In this document: positions 15,233 through 52,693 of the stretch, in pieces
Layout of the letters: the number at the start of each line of letters is the position of its first letter
Position numbering within the stretch: position 1 is the stretch's first letter
DNA from: Exiguobacterium mexicanum
GTDB taxonomy: Bacteria; Bacillota; Bacilli; Exiguobacteriales; Exiguobacteriaceae
Direction: 5' to 3'
Assembly: GCF_005960665.1 (NCBI RefSeq)
Contig: NZ_CP040676.1
Location: 1,374,501-1,438,500 of the forward strand
Length of the DNA stretch: 64,000 bases
Position numbers and translations under genes: made by a program
Notes under the pieces: generated by a model
The model's database searches: none
Seen by the model: the letters and a program-made list of their open reading frames with translations, nothing else
What the model was told of the DNA's origin: nothing

Positions 15233-15248
15233 ATGTAAACGCTTACAT
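15233..15248. promoter_or_regulatory. Perfect cre (CcpA) site between adhE and the MarR gene
   Basis: ATGTAAACGCTTACAT fits WTGNNARCGNWWWCAW at every position. It lies in the shared upstream region, about 250 bases from adhE and 116 from the MarR gene. Confidence 0.75.
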
Positions 15249-47076: not shown

Positions 47077-47108
47077 ATGGCCTGATCATCGCGATCAGGC
47101 CATTTTTT
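47077..47108 (+). terminator. Terminator of the SGNH esterase gene
   Basis: Perfect 11-bp stem ATGGCCTGATC / GATCAGGCCAT with a 5-base loop, then five T. The minus-strand GNAT gene ends at 47108. Confidence 0.87.
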
Positions 47109-47779
47109 CATCGTTCATATTTGACGAGCCAGCGCTCCCCGTCGCGCGTCATGGACGTTCCGTACCAACCCGCCTTCAACAAGGCGCCCTGTTGCTCCGT
47201 CTCGCCCATCTCGAGCCATGTCGCTTCTCCGGCCGGTCGCCAGTCGCTGTGCAGTTCCTTCATAAAGATGTAGCGCAACTTCCCGCCATACTTCGGTTTA
47301 AGGGCACCGATGCGAAGCCCGAGGGCAAACTTGTCTTTCAAGCTCGGGATGTTGAATGGTGCCACGGTCGCACAGACGAGGTCGAATCGGCTACCATGTT
47401 CCAGCTCTCTCATCAGAAGCCTGCCGAGATGCTGTTGCAGGCCGTAGCCGCGGTAGTCCGGATGGACGTTCGTCACTTCTTGATAAATGATGCGTTTCAG
47501 TCCCTCTGATGGATAACCGATATCACAGCCGAGATGCTCGTCATCGAGCGGTGGGATGAGGAGCGCGCGGAACGCGATCAACGTTCCCTTGTGATATGCC
47601 CCGATGAGCGTCCGGTCCGTCAACAACTTGACGAACTCCTCTGTCGACAAGGATTGATACTGGCTCCCTTCCGTCAGTGTATCCATGACATCCTGTTGCA
47701 CCGCCTCGATTTGTTCCAGGTCGGTCATCGCCAAATAGGTGACCTCGATGTCGAGGCCGTTACAATCACCGCGCCACAT
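47108..47779 (-). CDS. GNAT acyltransferase partnered with the racemase
   Basis: A 223-residue GNAT protein. The CoA-binding motif is VTNVHPDYRGYGLQQHLGRL (about 103-122); a FNIPSLKDKFALGLRIG segment near 142-158 and a C-terminal GWYGTSM tail complete a fold longer than typical. The ATG lies inside the last codons of the racemase gene and follows GGAGGGACCGATC, so the two are translationally coupled. The close coupling suggests that it acylates an amino acid that the racemase handles. That is inference; a direct substrate is not evident. Confidence 0.85.
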   Translation of the reverse strand: MWRGDCNGLDIEVTYLAMTDLEQIEAVQQDVMDTLTEGSQYQSLSTEEFVKLLTDRTLIGAYHKGTLIAFRALLIPPLDDEHLGCDIGYPSEGLKRIIYQEVTNVHPDYRGYGLQQHLGRLLMRELEHGSRFDLVCATVAPFNIPSLKDKFALGLRIGALKPKYGGKLRYIFMKELHSDWRPAGEATWLEMGETEQQGALLKAGWYGTSMTRDGERWLVKYER

Positions 47780-48907: not shown

Positions 48908-48944
48908 TTTACTTTTTATATATCATTAGCTATATTGTCGTTAA
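48908..48944. promoter_or_regulatory. Divergent promoters with candidate shared operator, racemase/regulator gap
   Basis: Plus promoter: TTTACT (48908-48913), 17-base spacer, TATATT (48931-48936). Minus promoter: TTTAAC (48940-48945), 17 bases, TATATA (48917-48922). The 16-bp element GCTATATTGTCGTTAA (48929-48944) covers parts of both and recurs with two changes in the nhaC promoter. Confidence 0.6.
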
Positions 48945-48963
48945 ATTGCAAGGAGGAGTTTTG

Positions 48964-50154
48964 ATGTCCATCCATATCGCCATCGTCGGGTCGCACGAAT
49001 TTGTGGCTACTATCCGTACCCTCGGTGCCCCAGAAGGTGTTCGGTTCGCGTATCACCCTTACGAGCATCCCCATGAAGCAGCCGTTATCGCCAAAACGCT
49101 CGGCTCGTTCGATGGTGTCTTTTTTTCCGGGTCGTTCCCGTTCACTTATGCGGCCCCCTACCTTCAAAACGTAGCGACCCATCACGTCGTCCAAGACGAG
49201 ACTGTCCTATTAACGACACTTCTCTATGCGACGCTCACCCACTCAGTCCCTCTTGATCAACTGTCCATCGATTTGGTCGAGCCGGAGCGCTTGACGTCAA
49301 TCCTCGAATCGTTCCCGAATCATGCCTCGACTCCTGCCGTTATGAAAGTCGAACCGAGTATCGCTTTCGAAGACGTGATTACTTTTCACACGGAGCACGG
49401 GGCCAAGCAGGCGAAACTGGCCGTGACGAGCATCGAACAAGTTCATCGTCAACTCGTCCGTGATGGATATCATAGTCTATTGATGATCGAGCCGCGGACC
49501 ACGGTCGAGCGCCATCTCGATATGTTAATTCAACGAATTCGACGCCAGTTCGCGGACGACGCCCAGTTCGCCATCATTCGTTTCGAGACCGACGACAAGG
49601 CATTACTCGAACATTTGAAAGTGGTCCGCTACCTTGGCGGACACATCGAATCGACCGACGATGGTCGTATCACGCTACTTACGACACGAGGCGAGACGAA
49701 CAACGCCCTCGATACAAGTACGCTCAGCCCAACAGGTGATTATCGAATCGGAATCGGCTATGGCACGCAATATCAACAAGCATACGAAAATGCTGAAATC
49801 GCACTATCGGCCGCAAGCAAGGAGCGCATTCGAATCGTCGACGATTCAAAACGCTTGTCCTTCCCGAACCGTGAGGACCGCATCCCCTATCGAGTGACCG
49901 AAGTAGCGGTCTTTGACGTCATCAAGCAAGCCGGGATCAGTCCGGTCAACATCGGTAAAATTATGCAGTTCTCAAAGCACCATCTTGAATTCACGGCAAA
50001 AGAGTTGACCGACCATCTCGCCGTCTCAAGACGGACGACGGAGCGACTCATCAAAAAATTACATGACGCGCAACTGATCGAAGTGATTGGTGAAGAGATG
50101 AGTTACAACCAAGGACGACCTCGTGCCGTCTATAAATTCAATTTCCCGACCTGA
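48964..50154 (+). CDS. Transcriptional regulator with cyclase-like domain and winged helix
   Basis: A 396-residue putative regulator. An unfamiliar N-terminal domain (about 1-150) opens MSIHIAIVGSHEFVATIR. The middle (about 170-310) resembles a degenerate GGDEF/PucR-like cyclase fold, with RIGIGYGTQYQQAYENAEIA typical of such relics but no GGDEF signature. The C-terminus is a winged helix: LEFTAKELTDHLAVSRRTTE, then RLIKKLHDAQLIEV and NQGRPRAVYKF. The ATG follows AAGGAGGAGTTTTG. It lies divergent from the racemase and convergent with nhaC, so it likely controls both. Autoregulation is suggested by the overlapping operator. Confidence 0.72.
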   Translation: MSIHIAIVGSHEFVATIRTLGAPEGVRFAYHPYEHPHEAAVIAKTLGSFDGVFFSGSFPFTYAAPYLQNVATHHVVQDETVLLTTLLYATLTHSVPLDQLSIDLVEPERLTSILESFPNHASTPAVMKVEPSIAFEDVITFHTEHGAKQAKLAVTSIEQVHRQLVRDGYHSLLMIEPRTTVERHLDMLIQRIRRQFADDAQFAIIRFETDDKALLEHLKVVRYLGGHIESTDDGRITLLTTRGETNNALDTSTLSPTGDYRIGIGYGTQYQQAYENAEIALSAASKERIRIVDDSKRLSFPNREDRIPYRVTEVAVFDVIKQAGISPVNIGKIMQFSKHHLEFTAKELTDHLAVSRRTTERLIKKLHDAQLIEVIGEEMSYNQGRPRAVYKFNFPT

Positions 50155-50173
50155 ATAGGCCGGGAAATTTTTC
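50140..50173. terminator. Bidirectional terminator between the regulator and nhaC
   Basis: Stem AATTTCCCGACC / GGCCGGGAAATT (one mismatch on plus, a G-T pair on minus), 6-base loop, T-tract. Confidence 0.78.
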
Positions 50174-51458
50174 ATTGTGCTGCTTGTTTTTCGAGTGGCG
50201 GTTCCACACTCTGCACAGCAATCCGTGCAATCGTGAAGCCTGTGAACGCATAGATAATCGAGATGACCGGAACGATGAAGTTCAAGATCGCGTATGGCGC
50301 ATATTCGAACGCCCCGACGCCGAGCGTCCCGAGAATGAACACACCGCATGTGTTCCATGGGATGAAGACCGACGTCAGTGTCCCGCCGTCCTCGAGTGCC
50401 CGGGATAAGCTTTTCGACTGAAGCCCCATTTTCTCATAAGCACCTGCAAACATACGAGATGGAACGACGATCGAGATGTATTGTTCGGAACACGTGGCGT
50501 TCGTTGCTACCCCGGCGAGAATCGTCGACGCAATCATCGAACCGGCCGTCTTCGCCAGTTTGACGATTTGATTCATGATCGATTGCAGCATCCCCGAGTA
50601 TTCTAAAATCCCTCCGAACGTAATCCCGACGATCGTCATCGAGACGGTGTACATCATCGCGTCGAGACCGCCCCGACTGAACAAGTTGTCGACGAGTTCA
50701 TTACCGGTGTCGATCACATACCCGCTCTGCAACGCCCCGACGCTGTCGGCGAGCGAACCGCCTTGGACGATGACTTGGGCGAGAAAACCGAGCGTAATCC
50801 CGACGACGAGTGCCGGAATGGCCGGTACTTTTCTCGCGCCGAGCGCGATGACGAGCCCTGGAATCGTCGTGTAGAGCATATGCCGAATATGTTCGAACAA
50901 GTTCGTGTGCGTCAAACCCGCCGCGAGGTTTGTCGTATCCGACAACGGGGACATCTTATCCCCGAAGTATGCCCCTGAGATGACAGCTCCGGCGACCATC
51001 GGTGCTGGTATCCCCATACTCAGTCCGATGCCCATCCCGGCGACGCCGATTGTTCCCATCGTCGACCATGAGCTGCCAATCGAGAGCGCGACGACCGAGC
51101 AGATGATACAAATCGTCACCAAGAAATAGGCCGGTGAAATAATCGTCAATCCGTAATAAATCATCGTCGCGACGACGCCTCCCCCGATCCAGGCACCGAT
51201 CGTTAAACTGACCAAGATGATGATGACGACGGCCGGTAGTGCGAGCCGAATCCCTTTGTACATCATCTCCTCGATCTCTTTCCACTTGTACCCGTGTCGC
51301 CATGCGACGAGCGACGCGACCGCTGTCCCGACGATAAGTGGGATGTGCGGCCCTTGTTCCAATTTGACAATGGCTACGAGCATGACCCCGATCATGACAA
51401 GTAGCGGCAATACCGCCCAGCGAAGCTTCATATCTACCTTGTTCCCCTGTTGTTCCAT
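50172..51458 (-). CDS. NhaC-family Na+/H+ antiporter
   Basis: A 428-residue membrane protein, about 11 hydrophobic segments. SIGSSWSTMGTIGVAGMGIG and SGAYFGDKMSPLSDTTNLAA are the NhaC unwound-helix signatures with conserved Asp residues. NhaC members exchange protons for sodium or, in some cases, carry organic anions (MalN-type malate/lactate exchange). The ATG follows GTGGAGGAAGACAC. Its promoter region holds the same 16-bp element as the racemase/regulator gap and a perfect cre. A role in importing the pathway substrate is possible. Confidence 0.88.
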   Translation of the reverse strand: MEQQGNKVDMKLRWAVLPLLVMIGVMLVAIVKLEQGPHIPLIVGTAVASLVAWRHGYKWKEIEEMMYKGIRLALPAVVIIILVSLTIGAWIGGGVVATMIYYGLTIISPAYFLVTICIICSVVALSIGSSWSTMGTIGVAGMGIGLSMGIPAPMVAGAVISGAYFGDKMSPLSDTTNLAAGLTHTNLFEHIRHMLYTTIPGLVIALGARKVPAIPALVVGITLGFLAQVIVQGGSLADSVGALQSGYVIDTGNELVDNLFSRGGLDAMMYTVSMTIVGITFGGILEYSGMLQSIMNQIVKLAKTAGSMIASTILAGVATNATCSEQYISIVVPSRMFAGAYEKMGLQSKSLSRALEDGGTLTSVFIPWNTCGVFILGTLGVGAFEYAPYAILNFIVPVISIIYAFTGFTIARIAVQSVEPPLEKQAAQ

Positions 51459-51490
51459 GTGTCTTCCTCCACGAAAGCGAAAAATTCAGA

Positions 51491-51512
51491 ATTGTCGTTA
51501 TATTGTCGCTAA
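51491..51512 (-). repeat. Direct repeats, candidate operator of nhaC
   Basis: ATTGTCGTTA (51491-51500) and ATTGTCGCTA (51502-51511), 11 bp apart. GTTATATTGTCGCTAA (51497-51512) matches 14 of 16 bases of the element at 48929-48944. Confidence 0.6.
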
Positions 51513-51519
51513 TAAGTAG

Positions 51520-51535
51520 ATGATAACGCTTACAT
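51520..51535 (-). promoter_or_regulatory. Perfect cre (CcpA) site upstream of nhaC
   Basis: ATGATAACGCTTACAT fits WTGNNARCGNWWWCAW throughout. It covers a -35-like TTATCA (minus strand) 18 bases from TATAAC, so CcpA would block nhaC transcription. Confidence 0.7.
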
Positions 51536-51549
51536 TTAAAGTTGGCAAT

Positions 51550-51595: not shown

Positions 51596-52693
51596 TCAAT
51601 TATCGTTTGCGGCCCGGCGCAACGTATCGGCGAGTAAGGCGGCCGCTTCTGGTAAGACGTCCCGATCGAACGACATATGAGGATGATGGAGCCCCGGTGT
51701 CAAGTTCGCGCCGATTCCAATCATCGTCGCATCGAGTCCCGGCTGTTCGACCGTATAGAAATGAAAGTCGTCACTACCTGATGTAATGATCCGGTCGACG
51801 AGCGCGCTTTCCCCGAAGCGGTCGACAATCGCTTCGGCCGCATGTCGGCTCGAGCGTTCGCCGATCTCCGCACCCGGTGTGAAGTCTTGCCAGTCCCAGT
51901 GGATGGTGACATCATGAAGGACGGCGATTTGCTGCAACAGCGTCTCGACGCGGTCACGTAACGCCAGCAGCTCCTTGTTCTGTTGAGCCCGGACGTCGAG
52001 TGAGAACGTCGCGTTCCCGGGGATGATATTCAAATTATCGCTACCGGCCTGGACGCCCGTCAACTTGATCGAATGGGGCTCGAACGGCGACAAGTAGATG
52101 CTTTTGAGCATCTGTTGAATCGTAAAGATGACATCTAACGCGTTTTGACCTTGATGCGGTCGCGCGCCATGAGCATCGTCCCCGATAACGCTTCCTCTTA
52201 GAAAGAATGCGGCTCCGTGTTGAATCGCAGCCGCATATTGTCCGCGCTGCAATTCCTCGAGCGGTCGCAAGTGGATGCCATACAGCTGACTCACTCCTTC
52301 GAGTGCCCCTTTTTGAATCATCGCGAGCGAGCCGTTCCCTTGTTCTTCAGCCGGTTGGAAAATGAAGCGAATCCGCTTCGATAGCATCTCATGTCTCAAC
52401 AGGTCGAGCGCGCCGAGCACCATGCTGATGTTGGCGTCGTGCCCGCATGAGTGATTGGCTTGAAACGTCCCGTCGACTTGTTGCCATAAGGCATCGATAT
52501 CGGCCCGGACAGCGATGACGTCATCACCTTGCCCAATCTCTGCGATGACCCCGGTCACGTCCGCAAACGTCTCGTGACGGACTTGCCATGACGTCAAGAT
52601 GCCGGCAATCGTCTTCGTCGTCTCAACCTCTTTCCAGCTCACTTCCGGATGAGCATGAAAATGCTCAAACCAGTTCAATACGTTCGTCGTCAT
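51596..52693 (-). CDS. M20-family amidohydrolase (N-acyl-amino-acid deacylase-like)
   Basis: A 365-residue M20D metallo-amidohydrolase. The start used is ATG 52691-52693, after GGGGGAATTGATC. Metal ligands are visible: Cys83 and His85 (SCGHDANIS), Glu116-Glu117 (PAEEQGNG, general base and ligand), His in GIHLRP and His in LHHPHMSFD. The lid domain (about 165-280) includes the GDDAHGARPHQG dimerisation motif. Relatives remove acyl groups from amino acids (hippurate, N-acetyl or N-succinyl). It lies 21 bases after the doxX gene. Fits the deacylase step of a racemase pathway. Confidence 0.88.
   Translation of the reverse strand: MTTNVLNWFEHFHAHPEVSWKEVETTKTIAGILTSWQVRHETFADVTGVIAEIGQGDDVIAVRADIDALWQQVDGTFQANHSCGHDANISMVLGALDLLRHEMLSKRIRFIFQPAEEQGNGSLAMIQKGALEGVSQLYGIHLRPLEELQRGQYAAAIQHGAAFFLRGSVIGDDAHGARPHQGQNALDVIFTIQQMLKSIYLSPFEPHSIKLTGVQAGSDNLNIIPGNATFSLDVRAQQNKELLALRDRVETLLQQIAVLHDVTIHWDWQDFTPGAEIGERSSRHAAEAIVDRFGESALVDRIITSGSDDFHFYTVEQPGLDATMIGIGANLTPGLHHPHMSFDRDVLPEAAALLADTLRRAANDN

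Follow-up and report, generated by a model that had tools for sequence, protein, structure and literature searches.

A tandem GTCGYTA element at a racemase gene cluster of Exiguobacterium, the probable operator of the regulator encoded beside it

Results

Gene content of the cluster

The analysed window is a stretch of 64,000 nucleotides from the 2.69-Mb genome of Exiguobacterium mexicanum, which was compared with 18 congeneric genomes. The features of the locus are presented in Table 1. The order acyltransferase-racemase / regulator / nhaC, M20 was found in all 18 congeners, except that one (G002, locus L046) had lost nhaC together with its operator, the M20 gene following directly after the regulator.

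The racemase matched PF02746 and PF13378, the N- and C-terminal domains of the MR/MLE group. It matched 2p88, the N-succinyl-Arg/Lys racemase of B. cereus, with an E value of 5e-160, and dipeptide epimerases came next. No significant Pfam match was obtained with the GNAT-like gene, the place of which beside the racemase is conserved. The NhaC protein of the window has 428 residues versus about 475 in congeners; according to the alignment, 47 codons were lost in frame after residue 207. This loss removes a hydrophobic stretch, and the transporter may therefore not work in the window genome.

Table 1. Positions of the genes and regulatory features in the window.
Feature	Positions	Strand	Remarks
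Putative GNAT-like acyltransferase	47108-47779	-	overlaps the racemase end; weak YncA / PAT-type matches
MR/MLE racemase, 376 aa	47766-48896	-	nearest solved relative 2p88
Predicted regulator promoter, TTTACT-17-TATATT	48908-48936	+	-10 at 48931-48936, abuts the operator
Operator unit 1, GTCGTTA	48937-48943	+	racemase/regulator intergenic region, within the 16-mer 48929-48944
Regulator, 396 aa	48964-50154	+	predicted PrpR_N-like sensor (~1-200), nucleotide-cyclase-like domain (~195-310), winged helix (~313-396)
NhaC-family transporter, 428 aa	50172-51458	-	47 residues shorter internally than in congeners
Complete tandem operator, GTCGTTA-TATT-GTCGCTA	51494-51511	+	nhaC promoter; perfect 7+4+7; ~+2 to +19 of the predicted start
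Predicted nhaC promoter, TTGCCA-17-TATCAT	51520-51548	-	related hexamers and equal spacing in congeners
Perfect cre (CcpA) consensus, TGTAAGCGTTATCA	51521-51534	-	over the nhaC -10; conserved in congeners
M20 amidohydrolase	51596-52693	-	predicted terminator (51584-51554) between M20 and nhaC

Predicted structure of the regulator

The closest relative of the regulator, with 94% identity, was found in Exiguobacterium sp. TNDT2. Searches of Pfam, NCBIfam and PDB sequences resulted in weak HTH matches only, and the protein belongs to no Pfam or NCBIfam family. The structure was modelled by AlphaFold2 with 19 sequences, and the mean pLDDT was 84. The modelled residues 1-200 matched the PrpR_N structures 2q5c (Z 17.6 over 183 residues) and 2pju (Z 16.6 over 177 residues). 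In the profile search with PF06506, the window regulator was not among the matches above the gathering score, and six of 20 family members matched weakly, the best with an E value of 0.017. The C-terminal part of the predicted model is a winged helix. With the middle domain modelled alone, the matches were dominated by cyclases, GGDEF domains and Cas10 palms with Z scores of only 7-10, and the GGDEF motif is absent from its sequence; the domain is tentatively assigned as a nucleotide-cyclase/GGDEF-like palm on the basis of this model. No Pfam match to the AAA+ sigma-54 domain was detected in the regulator, the middle part of which folds cyclase-like in the model.

Two 16-mers of a single operator type

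The first-pass annotation had described a shared 16-bp element in two promoters of the cluster. Both copies were found, at 48929-48944 and 51497-51512, and were identical at 14 of 16 positions. The same identity was reached in 0.5% of 3,000 dinucleotide shuffles of both intergenic regions; the pair alone is therefore modest evidence, suggestive only, and for this reason the relatives were compared. Exact ATTGTCGYTA decamers were found in the window at three positions, 48934, 51491 and 51502. The 11-bp period proposed for the nhaC site was confirmed, with 9 of 10 positions repeating. Both 16-mers belong to a single operator type, GTCGYTA-N4-GTCGYTA, in which two 7-bp units are arranged head to tail with an 11-bp period. 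An RNA leader element was ruled out since the orientation of the site is opposite in the regulator and nhaC transcripts.

The site between racemase and regulator

In the intergenic alignment, 18 of 18 congeners had the tandem TATATTGTCGTTAWATNGTCGYTA upstream of the regulator. The second unit followed at a distance of 11 bp and was GTCGYTA in 17 congeners and GACGCTA in one. The window genome alone has no tandem at this site, as it lacks exactly 11 bp, i.e. one unit (unit 2). It had been suggested earlier that the second half of the site at 48929 is degraded. This was not borne out, as unit 2 is situated rightward in the 18 congeners (TATATTGTCGTTAAATAGTCGYTAAATTGCAAGG) and the supposed degradation is a clean deletion of 11 bp on the opposite side from the one examined; the second half had been sought on the wrong side, and the deletion was consequently read as degradation. 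Due to the loss of one operator unit, the autoregulation at this site should be weaker in the window genome, which offers a natural one-unit operator variant for studying how the tandem works. In one metagenome-assembled genome (G015, L038:5747-6931), the regulator is interrupted by a stop codon in frame, possibly an assembly error, with both operators intact.

The hexamers and the 17-bp spacing of the predicted regulator promoter were kept in congeners, and related hexamers were found in Psychrobacillus and others. The overlap of the 16-mers with -10 or -35 elements held for the regulator -10 (TATATT, 48931-48936) and failed for nhaC, where the element starts just downstream of the predicted -10. 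No secure placement was obtained for the racemase -35 and -10. The candidate promoter in congeners, TTGCAA-17-GACAAT, is broken by the 11-bp deletion in the window genome. It is plausible that the first 16-mer covers the racemase promoter as well, for which no position was assigned with confidence.

The nhaC promoter and the direction of control

The nhaC operator TTGTCGTTATATTGTCGCTAA was invariant in all 17 congeners possessing nhaC among the 18 examined. No operator was found at the M20 gene's own promoter in the window. The nhaC promoter also matched the cre consensus TGWAANCGNTNWCA at 51521-51534. Two cre positions were detected in the window versus 0.15 expected matches; the second, also perfect and palindromic (TGTAAACGCTTACA), is located at 15234-15247. 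Cre-like sequences were also observed at nhaC of a distant genus.

The operator extends from the -10 to the start at the regulator and covers about +2 to +19 at nhaC, and this placement favours repression. A regulator that binds the operator, activates the racemase and nhaC and represses itself would fit the divergent layout with one shared site, which is also typical of LysR-like activators, and in the inspected loci the site kept one orientation with respect to the structural genes. However, the nhaC site lies past a complete -35/-10 pair with 17-bp spacing, which is a repressor-typical place, and activation is considered improbable compared with repression.

Rarity of the tandem and its co-occurrence with the regulator family

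When TTGTCGYTAWATWGTCGYTA was searched with up to 3 mismatches, the single match in the window genome was the nhaC site. At up to 1 mismatch, the tandem was found in the 19 Exiguobacterium genomes at the cluster promoters only (regulator/racemase and nhaC); abundance of the element at unrelated genes, which would have spoken against the original proposal, was not seen in this genome-wide search. Across the class, the regulator family was encoded by 155 of the 398 genomes sampled (profile search). The exact 18-mer pattern was present in 37 of the 398, and all 37 were among the 155 with the regulator family; in the 243 sampled Bacilli genomes without the family, the exact tandem was found in none. 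The reversed pattern, used as a control, gave one match in the 398 genomes. At the genus level, the family was present in 61 of 145 genera and the site in 9, all among those 61. The site is thus situated at the regulator's own and adjacent target promoters, is rare elsewhere and co-occurs with the regulator, which are the features of a local autoregulated regulon.

These distributions also bear on whether the tandem could be the site of an OmpR/PhoB-class two-component response regulator of the PhoP or WalR type. Proteins of this class bind two 6-bp repeats with 5-bp spacing, as in the PhoP box TTAACA-N5-TTAACA. The head-to-tail 11-bp grammar is the same, and the minus strand of the tandem reads TTARCG-N5-WTAACG, each half agreeing with the PhoP box at as many as 5 of 6 positions. 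However, the CG core was kept across genera, the exact tandem was absent from the genomes without the regulator family while PhoPR-type systems are widespread, no further sites appeared at up to 1 mismatch in the 19 Exiguobacterium genomes, and none of the ORFs inspected beside the sites was recognised as a response regulator. A response regulator of this class is therefore a very improbable owner of the site.

Conservation beyond Exiguobacterium

The same cluster with a near-identical operator was found in Psychrobacillus (L084-L086, L089) and several other genera, the regulators of which were about 28-35% identical. Outside the genus, the operator was mostly located directly 3' of a -10-like hexamer, and the -35 was TTTAC(T/A)- or TTGGCA-like. 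At the nhaC promoters of these bacteria, a copy of the operator follows closely on the -10 region, and in many species it has two to five mismatches. The contexts in the loci inspected were racemase, M20, transporter or dipeptide-permease-like operons with the regulator nearby. The racemases of the other clusters with the same operator shared 31-53% identity, and some clusters appear to hold peptide-permease genes; we infer from both that the substrate class may be broader, including dipeptides or cell-wall fragments.

In one genome (G180), one copy of the site was found at an M20 gene on another contig, a predicted target in trans. The M20 genes located elsewhere in G266, G360, G376, G150, G226 and G313 had no near-perfect site. 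Variants were observed as well. In L179 and L180, a weaker second GTCG tandem with 2-3 mismatches lies about 40-60 bp from the exact site, upstream of a racemase-like gene. In one genus (L213-L217, L222, L260), a second operator variant with another spacer, GTCGTTA-TAGT-GTCGTTA, was detected upstream of the regulator gene, at a distance of about 6-7 kb.

Covariation of the site with the recognition helix

The 129 distinct regulators were sorted by residues 356, 360 and 364, the class of interest having R/K, E and K, i.e. the helix (R/K)R..ER..K. Among the 62 regulators with this helix, the exact GTCGYTA-N4-GTCGYTA was found at most 7 kb away in 52, and in 57 when one mismatch was allowed. None of the 67 regulators with any other helix had the site within 7 kb. 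For two of the five misses (G328, G237), the site turned up farther out, in wider flanks, so the helix type predicts the users of the operator; L219, L220 and L235 had the right helix and no site within 7 kb. A sister branch (L129-L146 and similar) with the helix PRSARRIL was located near M20 genes and lacked the GTCG operator. No consistent 11-bp repeat was found upstream of 16 distant family members.

In the family tree, the site label required 4 changes versus 20.9 in shuffles, a few labels being affected by short flanking stretches. The site pattern is thus strongly clustered. As the family members are related, the covariation rests on few independent events; the Fisher p-values for the association of helix and site ignore this kinship and are not to be read literally. 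The helix classes were drawn up with both site-bearing and site-less members already in view; therefore, only the later-added members test the rule independently.

The remaining alternative, that the 16-mer is a core promoter common to both genes or a chance likeness of AT-rich intergenic regions, draws on the 14/16 match, which taken alone has a probability of about 0.005 in the shuffles, and on the closeness of the element to the -10 sequences. It is hardly tenable, since the letters were conserved across families while the surrounding promoter bases changed, and it is contradicted by the genome-wide uniqueness, the co-occurrence with the regulator family and the helix covariation.

Discussion

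The early suggestion of an autoregulated operator of the adjacent regulator is supported by the conservation across families, the restriction to genomes with the regulator and the covariation with the recognition helix. The element is very probably the operator of the cluster-encoded regulator, which would repress itself, the racemase-acyltransferase unit and nhaC until relieved by a ligand. The regulator most likely acts as an autorepressor in a regulon of racemase and transporter genes, the repression being lifted by a ligand related to the substrate; the binding, its sign and the ligand are what we infer from the genomes and the model.

Two winged helices of the regulator presumably bind both GTCGYTA half sites side by side, one helical turn apart. 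Head-to-tail sites at this distance would bring a pair of DNA-binding domains onto the same face of the helix, a stoichiometry suggested by the repeat. By occupying the nhaC start as well as the -10 and start region between the divergent regulator and racemase genes, the regulator would block RNA polymerase and so repress its own gene, the racemase-acyltransferase genes and nhaC. The repression may be relieved by a D-amino acid, N-acyl amino acid or dipeptide ligand on the PrpR_N-like domain, and CcpA would add carbon control at nhaC.

The pair of site and regulator recurs in many Bacilli at genes with an apparent role in recycling D-amino acids or dipeptides. Beyond this, it is quite possible, though offered tentatively, that a large Bacilli transcription factor family with a PrpR_N-like sensor, a cyclase-like domain and a winged helix controls the racemase pathways of amino acids and dipeptides, with one of its branches reading GTCGYTA-N4-GTCGYTA via the (R/K)R..ER..K helix and sensing D-amino acids or N-acyl/dipeptide derivatives. 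A DNA code and a gene set are hereby assigned to a regulator family that has no model in Pfam or NCBIfam and is encoded in 155 of the 398 sampled Bacilli genomes. The control of D-amino-acid and dipeptide racemase pathways becomes testable, and the circuit can be recognised by sequence.

No description of the regulator, the operator or the regulation of the cluster was found in the literature searched, which was open-licence only and thus gives weak evidence of novelty. The autoregulated local operator is of a known kind; the regulator family, its domain combination and the 11-bp direct-repeat code were not found described.

The regulator shares a predicted PrpR_N fold in the N-terminal sensor with PrpR (PF06506), the sigma-54 activators of propionate catabolism. 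In contrast to PrpR, no AAA+ sigma-54 domain was seen in it; the predicted middle domain is cyclase-like and is followed by a predicted winged helix at the C-terminus, and the promoters are sigma-A like. In regulators of the CdaR/PucR type, the GGDEF-like middle domain is inactive and the HTH is C-terminal, and the general layout of sensor, cyclase/GGDEF-like palm and HTH is similar. However, the sensor fold and the DNA-binding domain differ, and the Pfam and NCBIfam scans gave no match to the CdaR/PucR families. Compared with the Pho box and the B. subtilis PhoP/WalR boxes, the half-site sequence differs, and the proposed cognate protein is not a response regulator.

The N-succinylamino acid racemase clusters of Geobacillus and Bacillus cereus consist of a GNAT succinyltransferase, a racemase and an M20 desuccinylase, which convert D- to L-amino acids. 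The window cluster is alike in having a 2p88-like racemase with a GNAT-like gene and an M20 amidohydrolase alongside, and judged by this likeness, the set resembles the known pathway of D- to L-amino-acid conversion. In contrast to those clusters, the window cluster also holds an NhaC-family transporter and has a regulator of its own with a putative operator.
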